Shown: positions 7,320 to 63,732 of the stretch, piece by piece
Layout of the letters: the number at the start of each line of letters is the position of its first letter
How positions within the stretch are numbered: the stretch's first letter is position 1
Assembly: GCA_963281255.1 (NCBI GenBank)
Contig: OY725488.1
Span: 806,001 to 870,000 of the forward strand
DNA: 64,000 nt
Direction of reading: 5' to 3'
DNA from: Aphrocallistes beatrix
Lineage: Eukaryota; Porifera; Hexactinellida; Sceptrulophora; Aphrocallistidae
The notes under the pieces: model-generated
Told to the model about the DNA's origin: nothing
The model's input: the letters and a program-made list of their open reading frames with translations, nothing else
Database searches by the model: none
Made by a program: the position numbers and the translations under genes

Positions 7320-8456
<1,137 letters not shown>

Positions 8457-11484: not shown

Positions 11485-12621
<1,137 letters not shown>

Positions 12622-38038: not shown

Positions 38039-38458
38039 TCAAGAGAAGTAATTTAGAACTTCTTGTACATTAGCACTGTCTATTTCTGCGCCCCCATCCC
38101 AATTGTAGGAATAGGTCGAGTTGTCAGAAGCTAGAAAACATTTTATCTTTAGTTTCTCAATCTCTTCTTCCAGTTGCAGCTTTTCTTCTTTTAATGAATA
38201 ATATTGTTCTTTCAAATTCTCAATATTTCCACCCAGCTCCTCACATTCTCTCACATGCAACCATTTTTCACGCCCTCGTTTCCGAATCTTCCTCAGCGTT
38301 TTTTCGTCTTCAAGAGACATGGTTACTTTTTTCAACTCCTTTTTCAATTGCGTACAAGACAAAAATACTACACCCTCTAAAGTGAGGTTCTTCTCACTTA
38401 GAAATTGCGATTGAAATGTACTTAAATCTGAATCTGTCTTTGAGTTCTTTGAAGACAT
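38039..38458 (-). CDS. Small Maf/CNC-like coiled-coil protein A
   Basis: A 139-residue protein, ATG at 38456-38458 (a longer frame begins only with GTG). Residues about 25-60 (LTLEGVVFLSCTQLKKELKK) resemble the extended homology region in front of the basic region of Maf proteins. TLRKIRKRGREKWLHVRE aligns with the CNC/Maf basic region (CNC consensus RDIRRRGKNKVAAQNCR). The Arg-x-x-Arg-Gly core remains, but the AAxxCR residues that touch DNA are replaced. A heptad Leu/Ile zipper follows (LKEEKLQLEEEIEKLKIKC). The tail is acidic. It is a paralogue of 39766-40131 in head-to-head orientation, with a TATA-like TATAAATA at 38533-38540. Function inferred: zipper partner, possibly inhibitory, of bZIP factors. 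Expression unproven. Confidence 0.65.
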   Translation of the reverse strand: MSSKNSKTDSDLSTFQSQFLSEKNLTLEGVVFLSCTQLKKELKKVTMSLEDEKTLRKIRKRGREKWLHVRECEELGGNIENLKEQYYSLKEEKLQLEEEIEKLKIKCFLASDNSTYSYNWDGGAEIDSANVQEVLNYFS

Positions 38459-39129
38459 GATTAACACTCTTCTTGTTATTATTATTATTGTTTATTGAAT
38501 ATTATTGTTATTTACTTGAAATTTCTGAACTATATTTATATGATTTGTTCACTTTGAGTGAAATGATGAAAGTGAAATATCATTTCCAAAAATTTGTTTA
38601 CTAAATGATAATTATGGTAAATAGAAACTAAGAATTGCGATCTCAAATTAAACTCAGTTCGTCAACAATATTCTGGCATTTTATTGAATTGTGACTCATT
38701 CTAACTCAGCGATCTACTTCGATATGATTAAAGTATATTTTTTAAACGTGTATATAAAATTAAAGATGAAGAAAATCCAGGAAATTCAAATCATTTCCTA
38801 GTTCTGCAATTTATTCTAGGAATTGCAGTTGTTATTAAATCATAAATTTAATTAAATTAATCACTCAAATACAGTTTTACGTCTTATCCGGAATTCGTAT
38901 TAATCGGTTTATACGAGTTCTGGATACAGAGGATTTGAAAAGTGTACTCCTCATCCGGAATTACATATTGTCCGTTTTCTTACTGAAGAGAGCTATTGCA
39001 TGTATTTTATATTTGATAGAAATAGGTTTTCATTGTGTAGTGTTACAAAAAGGTTATGCGGTTTCGAGTGATATCGATTTTAACACTAAGATAGACATAT
39101 TTAGAGATGCTATCTCCCTTATAATTAAC

Positions 39130-39434: not shown

Positions 39435-39765
39435 AAAAAGTTAAAATGAAAGTACAGCAAAACAAAAACAAAAACTTATATGATACGCCCACAAATAAAC
39501 TGAACTTAGTCTCATAGCTAATCCAACCAATCAGAATACACTTTCCAAGCCAACAAACCAATAAAATACTTCAGTAAATACCTAAAGTGCATATGCGATT
39601 ATATTTCAACTCAGAATTAGTACACGTTAGCAGGCGAAGAGACAAAGGACATATTATACGTGGAATTAATATTAAATATATAAGCTAGAAAAGTATTGTT
39701 ATTACTATTATTATTATTACTAATTAATTATAATATATTAACAAAACGGCGAAACAAAAGTTAGT

Positions 39766-40131
39766 ATGTCTAAAGAAGTATTGAAAAGAAGCGAGCTAGA
39801 ATTGAGCTCACTTCACATCAAGTTCTTCAAAAATAAAAAGGTGACATTAGAAGAAGTGGTATTCCTATCAACCAAGCAGTTGAAGCAAGAATTAAAGAAA
39901 ACTACCTTTTCATTCGAAGAAAACAAAATGCTGAGGAAGATAAGGAAGCGAGGACGTGAGAAATGGTTACATGGGAGGGAGTGCGATGAATTGGGTGCAG
40001 ATATCGAGAGGCTAGGAACAGAAGTAACAATGTTACGGAGAGAAAAACTGCAACTGGAAGAAGAAATTGAGAAACTGAAAATAAAATGCTTCTTAGCATC
40101 TGATGACTCCACATCTAACAGTTATATGTAA
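39766..40131 (+). CDS. Small Maf/CNC-like coiled-coil protein B
   Basis: A 121-residue paralogue of 38039-38458. VTLEEVVFLSTKQLKQELKK matches the Maf extended homology region. MLRKIRKRGREKWLHGRE stands where the basic region should be. REKLQLEEEIEKLKIKC is the zipper and is nearly identical to the paralogue. Aligned with Maf (LKNRGYAQSCRYKR), the key Asn is Lys and the key Arg of the CR pair is His, so normal DNA contact is doubtful. Single exon, ATG at 39766, TATA-like TATATAAG at 39677-39684. The two genes diverge from a 1.3-kb region carrying the retroelement tail. An inhibitory or regulatory zipper is inferred. Confidence 0.65.
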   Translation: MSKEVLKRSELELSSLHIKFFKNKKVTLEEVVFLSTKQLKQELKKTTFSFEENKMLRKIRKRGREKWLHGRECDELGADIERLGTEVTMLRREKLQLEEEIEKLKIKCFLASDDSTSNSYM

Positions 40132-47796: not shown

Positions 47797-48228
47797 ATGG
47801 AGGTTCTTAATGATAACGCTGGGCATCTGAGCAATTACGAGGTGTTAGTCGTGATGAAAGAGGTCAACAAGGAACTTGCTACTATCAAGAACAAATTCTC
47901 AGATTCACAAAAGGTAAACGTGTTCAGGAATGGCGAAATAGTAGAAGAACATCTGAGTAACAGCCCCTGTGCTCAACAGAGTACAGAAAAGATAAAATTA
48001 TTCCTCCAAGCTCTGAGTCAGTTCAAACTGAAACAGACGGAGAAACTGCAAATATTGAACTCTTGTCCTGCGAAGCCAGTGGACCTACACATCCTTGTGG
48101 AGGAGTGCGACTCTCGCTTCTCCGATGAAGAGGTGGATTCTATTCTGACACTGGTACAGACGCACCTGTGTCAGGACGTGGAGATGTCAGAGGGAGGCGA
48201 GGAGAGGGAAACACAGGATGCGGACTAA
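47797..48228 (+). CDS. CRCP: RNA polymerase III subunit RPC9 (CRCP)
   Basis: A 143-residue protein (human CRCP 148). Its start MEVLNDNAGHLSNYEVLVVM matches human MEVKDANSALLSNYEV. The middle has QQSTEKIKLFLQALSQFKL and KLQILNSCPAKPVDLHILVEE, the HRDC-like helical fold of the Rpb4/RPC9 family. The acidic C-terminus ends EETQDAD. RPC9 pairs with RPC8 (POLR3H) in the Pol III stalk that recruits initiation factors. Animals also call it CGRP-receptor component protein. Single coding exon, AATAAA at 48449-48454. It lies in an intron of the FUT10/11-like pseudogene, on the opposite strand. Confidence 0.93.
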   Translation: MEVLNDNAGHLSNYEVLVVMKEVNKELATIKNKFSDSQKVNVFRNGEIVEEHLSNSPCAQQSTEKIKLFLQALSQFKLKQTEKLQILNSCPAKPVDLHILVEECDSRFSDEEVDSILTLVQTHLCQDVEMSEGGEERETQDAD

Positions 48229-56249: not shown

Positions 56250-58314
56250 GTAATTAGTCATTATTAGATAAATATGTGCGAACTAGCAATACTTTTCAAT
56301 TTAATTAATTATCCATGATCATGTATAGTGAATGGCGCGCCTGGCGCATTTGCGCTATCATGTTTACAGGATTTAAGTAAGCAACCGAGTCTGGCTATGC
56401 CACTGCTTAGGCGCATTGTCGAGTCAAGAACGTAAGTGATACCAATAATTCGTGAAGCAACAACCATCTAAATACCGCTGTCTGTTTAAATAAACATTCA
56501 ATCACATTTCAAAAATATCGGAATGAAAGACATCCGTTCTATCTTTGCAATGGTAGACTGAAATTAATTTAATAATAGTCAAAAGGGCTGACTAAAAAAA
56601 CTTGTGGTGAAGATCATTCCTTCTTGACTGGCAAAATCATTGTGTGAAAGTGATAGGACAGTCAATGTCAGTCATCCTAACGTATAACATTTCTATTTTG
56701 ACTTAATATAGAATAATATTCATTCTTGCAGTACAACAAAATTCACAACACGTGCTAACAACAGCTTTAGACCACACCTCTATGGCGATACGCTAAAGAC
56801 TGGATAGAATAGTTTAGAAGATGACCTCTCGAACTCGAAGAATTTGTATTCAAATTAAACCCGTAGAATTATTTAATTAATTATGCGAAGATAAGTTCAC
56901 GCGTAGATCAGGATTTTGAAACAAAGCTATGGATGATGTTAAAATCACACATAGAGTTGATTGAATATTAAGTTTGGACTCTTGTAGGAATCAAATGACG
57001 TCTGGAGAGAAGGCATTCTCAAAGACGCTAATTCATAATACGAAGGTCCCAGAGTAAATATTAATCTAAATAAATTGACTGCAAAAGCAGTAAAAACATC
57101 GTCAAATCAAAACATGGGCTATTGAACAATTCATCAATTTTGAAATAAGGTTTTCCTCAGGAAGATCCAGGAAGAGCTATAATCATTTCTCCTCTCCCTT
57201 TCTCCTTAAATATCTTAACTATATTCATGACCAATTTCGTAAAATTTATTTCAAAAATAGTTTTGAGCTTTTTAATAATTAATTTTTCCTCTGGGGAGCC
57301 CCTTATCCAGCATCTACTGCTAAACTTTATTGTTTCTAACTTAGCGTGAGATGTCAGTTTTTTATATCATTAATTCAATGCTAACGGATAAGAACATTTT
57401 TCCTCTTCGGGAAGTAGGTGTTGATCCGACCTTTCAAGGCACTAATAATAATGTGGATACTCTGTCTACAATTAAACTTCTTCATTAATAAGTATAATTA
57501 ACTCAGCATCAGGGAATTGATATTATAGTGTGGGTACAAAGCTTAGAACTGAATAAAGAGGTTCGAAGATAAAAGTAATTGGGAGTTCTGAAAAACAAAA
57601 TTTGATAGTATACGCATCTAGATCTAATTCTAGTACATACATGTCTTGTATGTAATATACCAGTCATATTTATCAGTTTATATTTCAGATTAATCCAGTT
57701 AGCAGACCAAATCAGAGTGCAAAGATAGTGTGGTAAATTAGCAATAATTGGATGGAACGCATTAAGTAGGCTACGGCATACGGTAATATGGAATTTATTG
57801 AATAATTCAGTGGAATAATTGTGTATCATATTTTTAAGACAACACGGGGTTCAATAATAGTTTAATTAGAGAAGTCATCTAGCATTTAATCGCTGTGCGT
57901 GAGTTTAATAAAAAGTTAGCACTAAAAGTAGTACGAATACGTAGTTCTAAAAATTTTAATCAAATAAACAAAATATAATAATAGTTCTTCAGGGACAGTA
58001 CAGGTACAATTAACAATTAACACCTTAATTAAGTGACTAGACACAATCTATCACACGTGTGGGTGGGTACAGTATCAGCTATACTTGTATTTGTATTCTC
58101 CAACAGTTCATTTATCAATAATCAATGTCAGTATTGAGTGGTCATTAAAAATCAAAATGCGAATATAGGTTATAAATTAAAATACGTCAATACAATATGT
58201 AATATGATGATAATAATAATACTAGGTCGGTTAAGGAAATCTGAACAAGACAGTTGGGCAAGAGTATACGTGGCATATGTAGGTATGATAAGCTTATTCA
58301 GTGCACTGGGATAG
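56250..58314. other. AT-rich stretch without a supported gene
   Basis: Nothing recognisable apart from AT-driven short frames (for example 57509-57829 minus). Confidence 0.4.
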
Positions 58315-58322
58315 TATAAATA
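58315..58322 (+). promoter_or_regulatory. TATA box of CARD gene 1
   Basis: TATAAATA inside GATAGTATAAATA, preceded by GTGCACTG. The same block stands in front of CARD gene 2 (63114-63121). Distance to ATG is 62 bases here and 61 bases there. Conservation between paralogues supports a real core promoter. Confidence 0.6.
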
Positions 58323-58383
58323 AAATATAAGAGGGTATAGAGTCAATACATAATTACTGGACACAATTATCAAGAAAGAAACA

Positions 58384-59067
58384 ATGAGTGAAAGTATGCC
58401 ATCATACATGCATTATTATACATATGAATACTTAATTGTTTCAAAATTAAATTTCTCCAGAATAAGCAAGAAGCTTTTAGAAGCAAAATTGATCCAAGAG
58501 GATGAACTGTGTTCGATTTCCAATGCAATGTACTCTAAGAGTAGACAAAACACTCGTTTGTTGAGAATTTTGTTTGATGAAAGAAGAGAATTTTATCCTT
58601 TCTTGGAAATACTCAAAGGAGATAGAGATTATGCTGCACATGCAGATTTGACAAGGAACATCCTAGCAAGGCATATCAGTAAAGCGGATGATCAGCCAGC
58701 AAATGAAACATTCGATCGGAAGCATAGCACTTCTTACTACGGAGAATGGGCACACCCTAAGTGCTGCGAATATCGGAGCGGCTCTGATTCTTCTATTTTT
58801 ACATATGATACGCAGGATTCCATTGACTCGAATACTGGATCCGAAGAAGAGAGGAAAGGAGAACGCGAAATAGTAGAATTGACAAATGAGGAACACCCCC
58901 AGAGAGAATTGCCAGTTAAAGGATTTCAGAATAGTGTTTACAATCGAGAAATCCAAAAGAAAAGTGGCATCATTCCCATGTTTGTCTTCGTTCTGTTCAT
59001 TGTCTTAGCGATTATGATGATGCCACTCAAGATTTGTAAATTTGCCAAATTTATACCAGTGAAATGA
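58384..59067 (+). CDS. CARD protein with C-terminal tail anchor, gene 1
   Basis: A 227-residue single-exon protein. Residues about 14-97 fit a six-helix death-fold domain of CARD type: TYEYLIVSKLNFSRISKKLL (H1-H2), LIQEDELCSI (H3 start, as in BCL10 ILSREDTEEI), RQNTRLLRIL (H4), FYPFLEILKG (H5) and ADLTRNILA (H6). A Ser/Glu-rich linker of about 80 residues follows, then a conserved stretch (IVELTNEEH, VYNREIQKK), one hydrophobic helix (MFVFVLFIVLAIMMM) and a short basic end KICKFAKFIPVK. This is a tail-anchor layout; basic residues after the helix favour the mitochondrial outer membrane. CARD plus linker plus tail anchor is the layout of MAVS. A signalling adaptor is inferred; orthology to MAVS is not claimed. 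A polyadenylation signal is at 59174-59179. Two relatives lie within 5 kb. Confidence 0.72.
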   Translation: MSESMPSYMHYYTYEYLIVSKLNFSRISKKLLEAKLIQEDELCSISNAMYSKSRQNTRLLRILFDERREFYPFLEILKGDRDYAAHADLTRNILARHISKADDQPANETFDRKHSTSYYGEWAHPKCCEYRSGSDSSIFTYDTQDSIDSNTGSEEERKGEREIVELTNEEHPQRELPVKGFQNSVYNREIQKKSGIIPMFVFVLFIVLAIMMMPLKICKFAKFIPVK

Positions 59068-59173
59068 CATTAATTAAATCAAAATGTGAGAACATGGCGA
59101 GAATCTGTAATAATAGTACTTGTATGTATGAAGGTGTGTGTGTTTTTGTACTATGTAGACCAATAACAAATGA

Positions 59174-59179
59174 AATAAA
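59174..59179 (+). terminator. Polyadenylation signal, CARD gene 1
   Basis: AATAAA, 107 bases past the stop codon. Confidence 0.5.
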
Positions 59180-59229
59180 TATATATATGAAATATTCTAT
59201 AAAATGAGTATGGCGCAGCCAAAAAGTTA

Positions 59230-59265
59230 CCGAACTTAGTTAGTTTTACAACTGACTAAGTTCGG
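59230..59265. repeat. 14-bp stem hairpin downstream of CARD gene 1
   Basis: CCGAACTTAGTTAG and CTGACTAAGTTCGG are inverted with one mismatch and an 8-base loop. It is just past the polyadenylation signal. Origin unknown. Confidence 0.45.
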
Positions 59266-60542
59266 CAATTGATTGTAGCTACAATAACAAATCGGTTAGT
59301 AAATACTTTCTGACAAACTAGTGTTAATTAAATACTACAAATAATTATATTGTAAAAAATATATTATGAAAGTGGTGTGAGGCTTCAGTGTGGGTGCAAT
59401 TATTGAAAGTCGGTTGAGCAGCAGAGTACAGGGTCCGAGTTCACAACGATGCTGTCAAACTTACACCGTGTTTGCAAACTGTATACAATAGGACAGATAT
59501 TCGTATTATTTACAATTTGAAATATAGTTTACTATTAGACACAACCTTTGCTACTTTAATTTTCAAAAATTTGAAGAGTAACCTTGCGGGCGAAGGTACC
59601 TCAAGTAAAATATAATTATAGGTAAAGTGAGATAATGAACCATGACTGTTCTTCCTCATAGACGGGGTGCGAATGCGTTCCACATTCCTGGATCAGGCAC
59701 ATTGTGAAATATTGAGCCGTTATCCAAAGAATGTAGAGCACACTCATTTCATTTGTAGTGAGGGGTTTCTTTCGTCCTGAACTTCCCGTTTTTCCCCGTT
59801 TTAAAACACGTAATTCAGTCAGATACCAACTGTTCTCCATTTCATAATAACTTTTTGTTATAGTCAAAAATTAAGAACAGCAAGATACACAAAAACGAGA
59901 GCAATATACATAAAATTATTTATTAAATATTATTTATAACAAAAAGCTTGACATGAGATATATAATCTAAAGTAAATTGCTCTGAGCCACTCTTCAAGAA
60001 ATATTTCTGTACCCAACATTGCACTTATCCAAGGCTGTAACCATGAGTTAGAACTATAGATAACAACTGACACTATACATACAAGTACAACGAAATAAGC
60101 GAGAGAGATATTATAACAATAGTCATTCACAACTTACTAATACAGTACTTACAATGGTATATTATTCGTGAAACCTTTTCTGATATCAAATCCATAGTCT
60201 AAACTTTCAAATTTATAAACGTTTTGCATAATTATCTTCCAAATGTTAATTATCATCAACCTGCACAACTTGCGCCACTTCATGTATAAGTAGTGAATAG
60301 TGACAAGTATATACCACTTCAAGGACTAAGAAGATTTATAACAAATAGCATTGGTAACCCAGTTAAAACACTAAGAGTATAATTCAAATGTGTAGAATAT
60401 GGAAACTCGGATTTGATGTCAGAAATGCAGTATCTGTTATTGTTCGAATGAACGCCACCACGAATAGTTCTATTAGAAAATTCGTAATGAAATATTGTGG
60501 CATTTAAAAAGATGTCCAGGTAATATAGAATTGCAAATGACA
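59266..60542. other. Stretch without a supported gene
   Basis: AT-rich. Open frames at 59616-59867 and 60319-60543 (minus) have no recognised homology and are not called. Confidence 0.4.
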
Positions 60543-60550
60543 TCCTAGCT

Positions 60551-61053
60551 CAGTGTTTTTCAACCAGTGGGCCACGGACTTCTTTTCAGTGGGCCACGGC
60601 CTGGTGATCTAATAATACAGTATAATCTCCAAAAGTGAACACCTCTAAAAGATGAACAACTCCAAAACATGAACACTTTTTCTCGGGCCCAAATTTTTCC
60701 ATTCTGTTACATATTATTTAACCTCCAACTTGTGAACACCTCTGAAAAGTGAAACGTGAACACCTAATCTTGTCCCAAATGTCCAAATTACAGTGGACAT
60801 GGCCTCTTAAAAGTGAACATAGCATGTGGCTTCATTAGATAATAGGCTAGAGTTGTAGAATTTGGATACGAATTCATCATAAATTGGAAGACCCTCTCTC
60901 TGTTTAGGATATTATTATCCTCACCCATTCTTAATGATTGCTGGTAAAAAAGTATTAATAGTAAAATAGAAATGTCACAGTAATGTAGTGGGCCACGGTT
61001 TTTTCTGTAGTACGCTAGGTGGGCCACAGCAGTAAAAAGGTTGAAAACCCCTG
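60551..61053. mobile_element. hAT-type MITE, 503 bp, with a nested repeat
   Basis: Ends CAGTGTTTTTCAACC and GGTTGAAAACCCCTG are inverted repeats. The perfect 8-bp target duplication TCCTAGCT flanks it (60543-60550 and 61054-61061). Subterminal GTGGGCCACGG repeats occur near both ends. The middle contains a second, tandemly repeated unit (CAGTATAATCTCC...AAGTGAAC and CAGTGGACATGG...AAGTGAAC), suggesting another element nested inside. No transposase frame. Confidence 0.88.
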
Positions 61054-61102
61054 TCCTAGCTAGACAGAATATTACAAAAGAATATCAACCATTTACCGTG
61101 TA

Positions 61103-61310
61103 TATGAATATTTAATTGTTTCAAAATTGAACGTTTCCAAAATAAATAGAAAGCTTTTAGAAACATTCTTGATCCAAGAGGATGAATTGTGTCGCTTTCT
61201 GCGATGTTTGAATTGAACAAAACGTAGGACTTCTGTTGAGAATATTGTCCAGTAAGAAGATCGCATTTCACGTCTCCTTGCAAGTATTGAAAATGACTAT
61301 GGATTTTGCT
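61103..61310 (+). pseudogene. Broken copy of a CARD tail-anchor gene
   Basis: The plus strand encodes YEYLIVSKLNVSKINRKLLE then FLIQEDELC, a frame change, then LLRILSSKKIAFHVSLQVLK in another frame. LLRILSSKK and FHVxLQVL match CARD gene 2 (62385-63053). Stops and at least one indel break it, and the linker and anchor are gone. It starts 50 bp to the right of the hAT element at 60551-61053. Confidence 0.8.
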
Positions 61311-62384
61311 AAATCGTTTCCGGTTAAGTCATTTTGGGTGGTGAAACCTTAGAAGTGTGGGGTCTTTGCTATACGTAAATAGAAATGACCCCAGGTAACT
61401 AATTAAAGGAGGATCGAAGCTGAGGTAAAAGTATTACATGTAAACATTGTCATAACATCATTACCTTTAAGCAATCACACTTAATAACATCCGGTAAAAC
61501 GGATCGATTTTGAAAATTTCAAAATGTACCCATTTACTGAATGTTAACCTTCTTGAACACTAACTTAGTAGCTTTGACAAAAAAGATTGATTGGACACTA
61601 CTTTTGTCTAAATTGATGAACTCTATCCTTCATTGCTTTAAAGATGTGTATACAATAAACTCACTTGAAGTTGAAAACCGCTCCTACATTGTTTACCTTC
61701 AGGGTTACAAACTTATAGCCATTTGAAATTAATTATAGTTTATGTTAAGCTAATTAGTTCTGTTGGATTTATTTGGCATTGTGTAGTATTTGTGGTATAT
61801 CTGTTTATCCAAAAAATGAGAAAATTTGTCTTGGTGAATCAAAATAAAGTCAATTCCAATTACAGACGGTTTACAAGCTACATATGTAAACGCTGGTCAT
61901 ATATATATAGTAGTACTATTCTGGTTAAATTTAATTGTTAGCACTTTTCTATTGTAATTGACAAACATATCGGTCGATAGACCAATACGAGTAGTGCAGT
62001 TCCAAACGGAAACTTAAAAAATTATCAGGACGCTATAAAGGAATCATACATACCTAATTTGAACTCATTTCGCAGAATCAGGCCTACGGGCGTAGTGCAC
62101 CGTGAGTCCGTGGGACCGTGTCGGTCCATGCAATAAGGGCATCTCCTTATATGGTATGCTATACTTAAAATAGAAGTATCATACCAACAAATTTTGGAGC
62201 CCAAACCATCTCCTTACATTCGTTCAACACACACCACACCGTATATCCAATATAACCTTTGAACAAGACATAGTTGTGTACTTATAGTTTAACATTCAAA
62301 ATCACTGCACATTGTCAAATATAATCTACAAAAACATAACATAACAATTGGACATATTATACCATATAATGTTACTAGTCATTG
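61311..62384. other. Stretch without a supported gene
   Basis: AT-rich. 62100-62155 holds a relative of the short dispersed repeat at 10905-10972. Confidence 0.4.
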
Positions 62385-63053
62385 TCACTTCATTAGCATA
62401 AATTTGATGCACTTAGAAATCAGTTGGAGTGGTGTTACTAAAATCGCAAGTACGAAGAACAGAAGAGAGAAGAAGGATATAATAATACTTTTCTTTTGAA
62501 TTTCTAGATTGTGAACATTCTTACGAAAAACATGTATGGGAAATTCTTCCTTGATGTCTTCTTTTCTTGTCAGTTCAATTATTCGGCTTTCCTTCACACA
62601 CAACTCTTCAGAGCTGTGAAAAGAATCCGAATCAGGAGAAACTCGTGTCTCATTTGCGAAGACGGAAGAATCAGAATCGCTCCAATCTTCAGGAGAGTAA
62701 TCAGGACATGTGCCATCATTTGTGCGGTGAATTTCTTCTTTCAGCTGATCTTCTGGTGTAATGCTCTCTCTAGCTAAGATGCCCTTTGCTAATTCTGTAT
62801 GTTCACTGTAGCTTCTATCTTCGTTTAGTACTTGTAAGAAGACGTGAAATGCGACTTTCTTACTGGATAATATCCTCAACAGACGTGCGTTTTGTTTAAT
62901 CCTATCAAATATTGCAGAAAGCGAACACAATTCATCCTCTTGGATCAAATTTGTTTCTAAAAGCTTTCCACTTATTTTGGAGATATTCAAATTTGAAACA
63001 ATTAAATATTCATATGTACGATAAAAATTGATTGATTGTACTTTTGCACTCAT
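62385..63053 (-). CDS. CARD protein with C-terminal tail anchor, gene 2
   Basis: A 222-residue paralogue of 58384-59067, read from the ATG at 63051-63053 (MSAKVQSINFYRTYEYLIVS). A more upstream in-frame ATG at 63102-63104 is rejected, because the TATA box conserved with gene 1 would then be only about 10 bases away. The CARD-like region is TYEYLIVSNLNISKISGKLL, LIQEDELCSLSAIF, RLLRILSSKK, FHVFLQVLNE and AKGILA. It is followed by an acidic Ser-rich linker, the conserved IIELTRKED and VHNLEIQKKS, a TM helix (FFSLLFFVLAILVTPL) and a basic end ISKCIKFMLMK. CARD, motifs and anchor are the most conserved parts, while the linker has diverged. It faces gene 1 tail-to-tail. Same inferred role as gene 1. 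Confidence 0.72.
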   Translation of the reverse strand: MSAKVQSINFYRTYEYLIVSNLNISKISGKLLETNLIQEDELCSLSAIFDRIKQNARLLRILSSKKVAFHVFLQVLNEDRSYSEHTELAKGILARESITPEDQLKEEIHRTNDGTCPDYSPEDWSDSDSSVFANETRVSPDSDSFHSSEELCVKESRIIELTRKEDIKEEFPIHVFRKNVHNLEIQKKSIIISFFSLLFFVLAILVTPLQLISKCIKFMLMK

Positions 63054-63587: not shown

Positions 63588-63732
63588 CATAGGCGCCGAA
63601 CCCGGGGGGGCTGGGGGGGCTCAAGCCCCCCCTGGATTTGAAGATGGCCCATAGACGCAATACAAATTTTAGTGCTGAGCCCCCCTAGAACTCCAAAATT
63701 TTCCATATATTTTGAAAAGTTCGGCGCCCCTG
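63588..63732. mobile_element. hAT-type MITE, 145 bp
   Basis: Left end CATAGGCGCCGAAC and right end GTTCGGCGCCCCTG share the inverted core GGCGCCGAAC. The perfect 8-bp target duplication ACTATGAC flanks it (63580-63587 and 63733-63740). The interior has runs of G and C. Confidence 0.8.

Follow-up and report, generated by a model that had tools for sequence, protein, structure and literature searches.

The locus described here raises the question of whether a glass sponge possesses CARD proteins that act from a membrane and, if so, whether they act like MAVS, the mitochondrial adaptor of RIG-I-like receptors (RLRs). It lies in a stretch of 64,000 nucleotides of Aphrocallistes beatrix (assembly GCA_963281255.1, contig OY725488.1, here C1, positions 806001 to 870000), which is called the window below; the genome searched comprised 100.5 Mb in 28 contigs. 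An initial annotation, made from the letters of the window alone, described two intact single-exon genes and one broken copy encoding proteins with a MAVS-like layout, i.e., an N-terminal CARD, an acidic serine-rich linker, and a tail anchor with a basic end. Analysis of the locus and of the genome upheld the family and its layout but neither the link to MAVS, nor the conservation of the pre-anchor motif and anchor, nor a broken copy extending beyond the CARD. The evidence leans, not strongly, toward a membrane platform for CARD-caspases, with the MAVS analogy as one of several.

The two intact genes are each encoded by a single open reading frame (ORF) on opposite strands (Table 1), and their products, P0001 and P0002, share 49% identity. 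The DNA similarity of the pair (58299-59069 versus 63139-62383, 65.9%) begins some 85 bp ahead of the start codon and runs to the stop, and the start-codon context ACAATGAGT is common to both. Gene 2 has a further in-frame ATG 17 codons upstream; the start at 63053 is the position aligned with the start of gene 1. The window is rich in long single ORFs (by eye, some resemble squalene epoxidase, SPOP, and MAPK genes), and the absence of introns in genes 1 and 2 is therefore unremarkable. When the whole genome was searched at the protein level, P0002 (at E up to 0.001) and P0001 (at E up to 10) led to the same four places, namely, genes 1 and 2, the broken piece between them, and one more intact gene. 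The product of the latter, P0004 (C1:1498436-1499257 without the stop, 274 amino acids [aa]), is encoded about 0.63 Mb from the gene pair. With P0004 as the query, the matches were P0004 itself, genes 1 and 2, and a weak place on contig C14 with four stops (E 0.005), which was set aside; the broken fragment was not among them. Genome searches scored only the best candidates, so that all counts of places given here are lower bounds. The genome thus holds a small family of predicted tail-anchored CARD proteins, comprising at least three intact genes plus a broken piece of CARD sequence, and the local expansion proposed initially is supported as a small one.

Analysis of the N-terminal regions with the Pfam CARD model (PF00619, cut-off of 23.9 bits) placed one of the three family proteins over the cut-off. 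P0002 scored 24.5 bits with residues 1-95 and 24.0 bits in its genome frame; the whole protein remained under the cut-off (21.8 bits, E 1.9e-4). Pfam scans of P0001, P0002, and P0004 at E up to 10 revealed no other death-fold family, and none of 10 control sequences (nine shuffles and one reversal) matched CARD. Comparison by hhalign of a profile of the three family proteins with the nine other CARDs of the genome aligned 67 columns with a probability of 83 and an E value of 8.7e-6 at 7% identity. When an HMM of these nine CARDs was applied, the real score was reached by none of 2,000 own shuffles for P0001 and by 1 of 2,000 each for P0002 and P0004, with the shuffles made from residues 1-100 and the real proteins scored at full length. 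These results indicate a CARD signal that exceeds chance, and the N-terminal CARD of the initial annotation is borne out at the level of sequence.

In each of the three proteins, a single segment close to the C terminus is strongly hydrophobic, and nothing comparable occurs elsewhere. The best 19-residue hydrophobicity means were 2.84, 2.71, and 1.95 in P0001, P0002, and P0004, respectively, compared to at most 0.32, 1.21, and 0.78 in the rest of the proteins. The uncharged runs comprise 22, 25, and 29 residues, that of P0004 (residues 236-264) being followed by a 10-residue tail with a charge of +2; together with the tails of +4 and +3 in P0001 and P0002, this agrees with the single hydrophobic segment and basic end described before. 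Basic tails suit proteins of the mitochondrial outer membrane, and those of the family may be compatible with the endoplasmic reticulum (ER) as well. A TRP-channel match of P0001 (residues 132-213, E 6.5e-4, 19.1 bits) was rejected, being under the cut-off of 28.5 bits and spanning linker and anchor; it was absent in P0002 and P0004. The anatomy taken alone, i.e., CARD, linker, and tail anchor, is very probably as predicted.

The linkers are acidic, as annotated, with net charges of -6, -11, and -7 in P0001, P0002, and P0004. Comparison of the three linkers revealed an acidic-serine block of 20 residues (EDNESGIFSDDSEFSPDSES in P0004; Table 1), and the best such block scored 131, compared to a mean of 51 and a maximum of 108 in 1,000 shuffles, none of which reached the real score; the length of 20 was chosen after the block had been spotted by eye. 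Identity of P0002 and P0001 to P0004 amounted to 28% and 42% in the CARD and to 40% and 35% in the linker block. In the linker it was 21% and 14% before the block and 22% and 16% after it, and it was 7% and 13% over the 15 pre-anchor residues and 12% and 6% over anchor and tail. Judged by these identities across the third paralogue, the CARD and the linker block are the parts conserved in sequence; of the anchor, the property persists but not the sequence. The strongly conserved pre-anchor motif described initially is common only to the two close copies. Likewise, the initial contrast of divergent linkers with a constant CARD and anchor fails when P0004 is included. A beta-TrCP-type degron in the block was rejected as a family feature, as only P0004 fits (ESGIFS).

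The linker was also said to diverge fast, and between genes 1 and 2 it does carry more substitutions of both kinds as well as insertions and deletions. Selection on it is not special, however. Bootstrap medians of pN/pS for gene 1 versus gene 2 were 0.56 (bounds of 0.38-0.85) in the CARD, 0.55 (0.38-0.82) in the linker, and 0.55 (0.37-0.90) in the tail. These results indicate purifying selection throughout the proteins and lend no support to positive selection in the linker.

Candidate partners were sought in the CARD inventory of the genome. The PF00619 search revealed 11 places, of which 10 exceeded the cut-off (one of them P0002) and 1, in a Roc-caspase frame on C13, did not; in 14 control genomes, the same model gave matches in 2 and exceeded the cut-off in none. 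The nine places over the cut-off outside the family comprise five Roc-CARD-caspase genes, two CARD-PDZ frames with a CARMA-like domain order (C11 and C10), and two small CARDs that form a near-identical pair on C8. Among the Roc-CARD-caspase genes, that on C18, which also encodes a NACHT domain, and three of the four on C17 occupy one open frame each; the fourth on C17 (L027) is split over two overlapping frames, and its caspase part is broken. A 12-row CARD tree placed the family beside the caspase CARDs (modest support of 84/92). A model of the five caspase CARDs gave 11.3, 10.2, and 8.9 bits for P0004, P0001, and P0002, respectively, a two-row CARD-PDZ model gave 3.9, -0.2, and -0.7 bits, and a two-row model of the small C8 CARDs gave -0.1, 3.8, and 9.5 bits.

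NACHT domains were found at 94 or more places on many contigs (e.g., C13, C1, and C15); all 94 of the 176 candidates that were scored matched, and many of these places are single frames of about 1,100 aa; the NACHT model also matched 14 of 14 control prokaryotes and was over the cut-off in 3. Two NACHT proteins scanned by Pfam have DED-like N termini with 35.5 and 24.7 bits, both under the cut-off of 35.9, and the DED model matched 41 places in the genome, none over the cut-off. NACHT N termini as CARD partners are thus unsupported for the four loci examined, the two scanned being DED-like; the exception among the NACHT frames is that on C18, which carries a CARD. For the sponge Dysidea avara, 39 CARD genes are given, and 20 NACHT-LRR genes there carry a CARD (PMC12909245); sponge death-fold adaptors, studied by DAmFRET, are described as supersaturable (PMC13012725; for further literature, see PMC6723221 and PMC11251625). 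Among the best-ranked titles and abstract openings covered, from a collection poor in subscription journals, none described a tail-anchored CARD family of this kind in a non-bilaterian. None of 82 pattern matches to the family in prokaryote genome contigs and none of 97 in viral contigs was confirmed, and an NCBIfam scan gave one chance-level match only.

From this anatomy and inventory we infer a mechanism of membrane-anchored CARD adaptors that assemble CARD-caspases, to which, as a whole, we assign a probability of about 0.42. Through its C-terminal segment, the protein would sit in a membrane that borders the cytosol, either the ER or the mitochondrial outer membrane, and the CARD would stay cytosolic. 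Upon a trigger, the CARDs would assemble and recruit other CARD proteins. The Roc-CARD-caspase proteins are the commonest candidate partners in the genome, and because they are the most numerous candidates found, caspase activation at the membrane surface would be the likeliest output. The acidic-serine linker block would be a likely docking or phosphorylation site regulating this process. A bolder version appears doubtful to us, namely, that a MAVS-like membrane CARD platform directly loads Roc-CARD-caspases, is gated by a phosphorylatable acidic-serine block, and evolved apart from RNA sensing; it would accord with the DED-like N termini of the NACHT receptors examined and with the RLR searches, which found none.

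Several results weigh against the assembly of CARD-caspases by this family. P0001 scored under the CARD cut-off (14.3 bits), and P0004 is without any Pfam match. One P0004 shuffle scored above all real family sequences with the nine-CARD HMM. A search of the family CARD profile against the PDB at E up to 10 returned no CARD chain but six other chains (best E 0.36), whereas the control profile of the nine other genome CARDs does match CARD chains there; PDB searches with P0002 and with the whole-family profile matched no chain. The tree fork of 84/92 is below the mark for firm support, and P0004 is on a long branch. P0002 scored slightly higher with the small C8 CARDs than with the caspase CARDs, and because 9.5 stands against 8.9 bits, its score fails to separate the two. 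The models are also of unequal size, five rows for the caspase CARDs compared to two. The choice of partner rests on the inventory and the tree fork.

A MAVS-type antiviral adaptor, in which an RNA sensor would engage the CARD and a membrane-bound polymer would signal to NF-kB or IRF, is possible but unlikely. The CARDs of MAVS and the RLRs presumably fall in CARD_2 (PF16739), and MAVS contains a Pro-rich region and TRAF-binding motifs, for which TRAF6-type (PxExx[FYWDE]) and pLxIS-like definitions exist. The family proteins, which match PF00619, did not match CARD_2 at E values of up to 10, and the one CARD_2 place found in the genome is under the cut-off and lies in a caspase gene. They are short (222-274 aa), and their acidic Ser-rich linkers are poor in Pro (4 of 98, 5 of 93, and 4 of 140 residues) and contain neither a TRAF6-type nor a pLxIS-like match; a loose [PSAT]x[QE]E motif occurs 2, 1, and 0 times in the three linkers. 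Genome profile searches revealed neither the RIG-I C-terminal domain (PF11648) nor RIG-I_C (PF18119), weak negatives in that diverged or multi-exon genes could escape such searches, and Dicer_dimer as an internal control gave five matches, three of them in open frames of >1,500 aa. The models PF11648, PF18119, and MALT1 Ig gave no match in the control genomes either. These results suggest that RLRs may be absent from the genome.

In favor of such an antiviral adaptor, the layout as seen at the sequence level is that of vertebrate MAVS and oyster CgMAVS, which likewise combine an N-terminal CARD, a long linker, and a single C-terminal transmembrane (TM) segment (PMC5557890), and two IRF places were found, both over the cut-off, one with an internal stop. 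CgMAVS has a death domain as well (PMC5557890), and none was found in the family proteins. Sponge RLRs exist (PMC8998645) and were also used in another study (PMC8476169); those of Amphimedon have death-domain N termini instead of a CARD (PMC8998645). According to one survey, MAVS is missing from every cnidarian that it covered, and its authors call the RLR signal route there unclear (PMC8260672). MAVS is furthermore not the sole protein of this layout, because CARD19 shares with MAVS, as the only other CARD protein, the label of an integral mitochondrial membrane protein (PMC8997538). The link to MAVS drawn in the initial annotation is thus unsupported by domain family, linker composition, motifs, and, as a weak negative, the RLR searches.

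CARD-only inhibitors are known, and the family might instead be an inhibitory decoy, i.e., a membrane-held brake on CARD-caspases. In line with this, no enzymatic or sensor family besides CARD was accepted in Pfam, as is the case in CARD-only inhibitors. We nevertheless regard a brake as distinctly improbable, since neither the linker block nor the anchor would obviously be needed by it.

BCL10 is a CARD adaptor with a Ser-rich C-terminal part and no membrane anchor. The likeness in CARD and Ser-rich part, together with the two CARD-PDZ frames, one of which is over the PDZ cut-off, would fit a BCL10-like role as a partner of these two proteins at the membrane. The family differs from BCL10 in its anchor, its CARDs score low against the CARD-PDZ model and are distant from the CARD-PDZ CARDs in the tree, and no MALT1 Ig-like domain was found in the genome profile search (a weak negative), so that this role has little to recommend it.

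The small mitochondrial protein CARD19 (BinCARD; 183 aa) also combines a CARD, dispensable for localization, with a single TM, which lies more centrally and is followed by a long C-terminal part (aa 147-183) needed for targeting (PMC8997538). That the family is likewise a mitochondrial protein of similar size whose tail serves organelle structure, with a minor role of the CARD, is hardly probable, since the uncharged run is followed by only 12, 9, and 10 residues and conservation is higher in the CARD than in the tail (6-12% identity to P0004), the reverse of what the tail contacts of CARD19 would lead one to expect.

Analysis of the region between genes 1 and 2 confirmed a degraded piece of the family, related to gene 2, which is interrupted by an in-frame TGA and changes frame between its two matching parts. 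This broken copy is limited to the CARD, as tblastn between the two genes revealed no convincing remains of a linker or anchor beside it. A 503-bp element with hAT-like ends stops 21 bp before the fragment. Upstream of gene 2, a short GC-rich element (63592-63728) has inverted ends, GGCGCCGAAC and GTTCGGCGCC, read by eye.

Elsewhere in the window, two nearly identical single-frame actin genes are found in the same orientation (7320-8456 and 11485-12621), as are two diverging genes for similar small basic proteins with, by eye, a leucine-zipper-like look (38039-38491, minus strand, and 39742-40131, plus strand) and an intact gene for an RNA polymerase Rpb4-type protein (47797-48228; PF03874, E 9e-21). 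Scans of the whole window with Rfam at gathering thresholds and with ARAGORN revealed no Rfam match and no tRNA.

Table 1. Features of the CARD family in the window and candidate partner genes elsewhere in the genome (positions refer to the window unless a contig or locus is given)
Feature	Position	Strand	Description
Gene 1 (P0001, 227 aa)	58384..59067	+	Intact single ORF: CARD, acidic linker, predicted tail anchor; AATAAA at 59174
CARD core of gene 1 (residues 19-78)	58438..58617	+	Pfam CARD E 0.041, 14.3 bits (<23.9); profile comparison and shuffles
Acidic-serine linker block of gene 1 (residues 132-151, SGSDSSIFTYDTQDSIDSNT)	58777..58836	+	Three-way block score of 131
Putative tail-anchor segment of gene 1 (uncharged run, residues 194-215)	58963..59028	+	Followed by 12-residue tail, charge +4
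503-bp element with hAT-like ends	60551..61053	+	Perfect 8-bp target duplication TCCTAGCT; neighbor, outside the family
Broken CARD-only fragment, related to gene 2	61075..61286	+	82.8% DNA identity over 221 bp; protein-level match to about 61313
Gene 2 (P0002, 222 aa)	62385..63053	-	Intact single ORF
Putative tail-anchor segment of gene 2 (uncharged run, residues 189-213)	62415..62489	-	Followed by 9-residue tail, charge +3
Acidic-serine linker block of gene 2 (residues 125-144, SDSDSSVFANETRVSPDSDS)	62622..62681	-	Same three-way block
CARD of gene 2 (residues 16-83)	62805..63008	-	Pfam CARD 24.5 bits, E 2.8e-5, on residues 1-95
Roc-CARD-caspase cluster L024-L027	C17:416000-455900		Four genes, one frame-broken
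L023	C18		NACHT-Roc-CARD-caspase, single frame
L030	C13		Roc-caspase with CARD under cut-off
L021 (C11/C10 CARD-PDZ pair)	L021 1855-5451		Long open frame, CARD near N terminus, partial PDZ match under cut-off
L022 (C11/C10 CARD-PDZ pair)	L022 1831-5619		Long open frame, CARD near N terminus, partial PDZ match over cut-off

A membrane-anchored CARD adaptor not assigned to MAVS, in a genome that has CARD-caspases and in which no RLR was detected, would suggest that a CARD on a membrane tail arises or persists without RNA sensing, and the family would offer a small system in which to test how membrane death-fold platforms originated.

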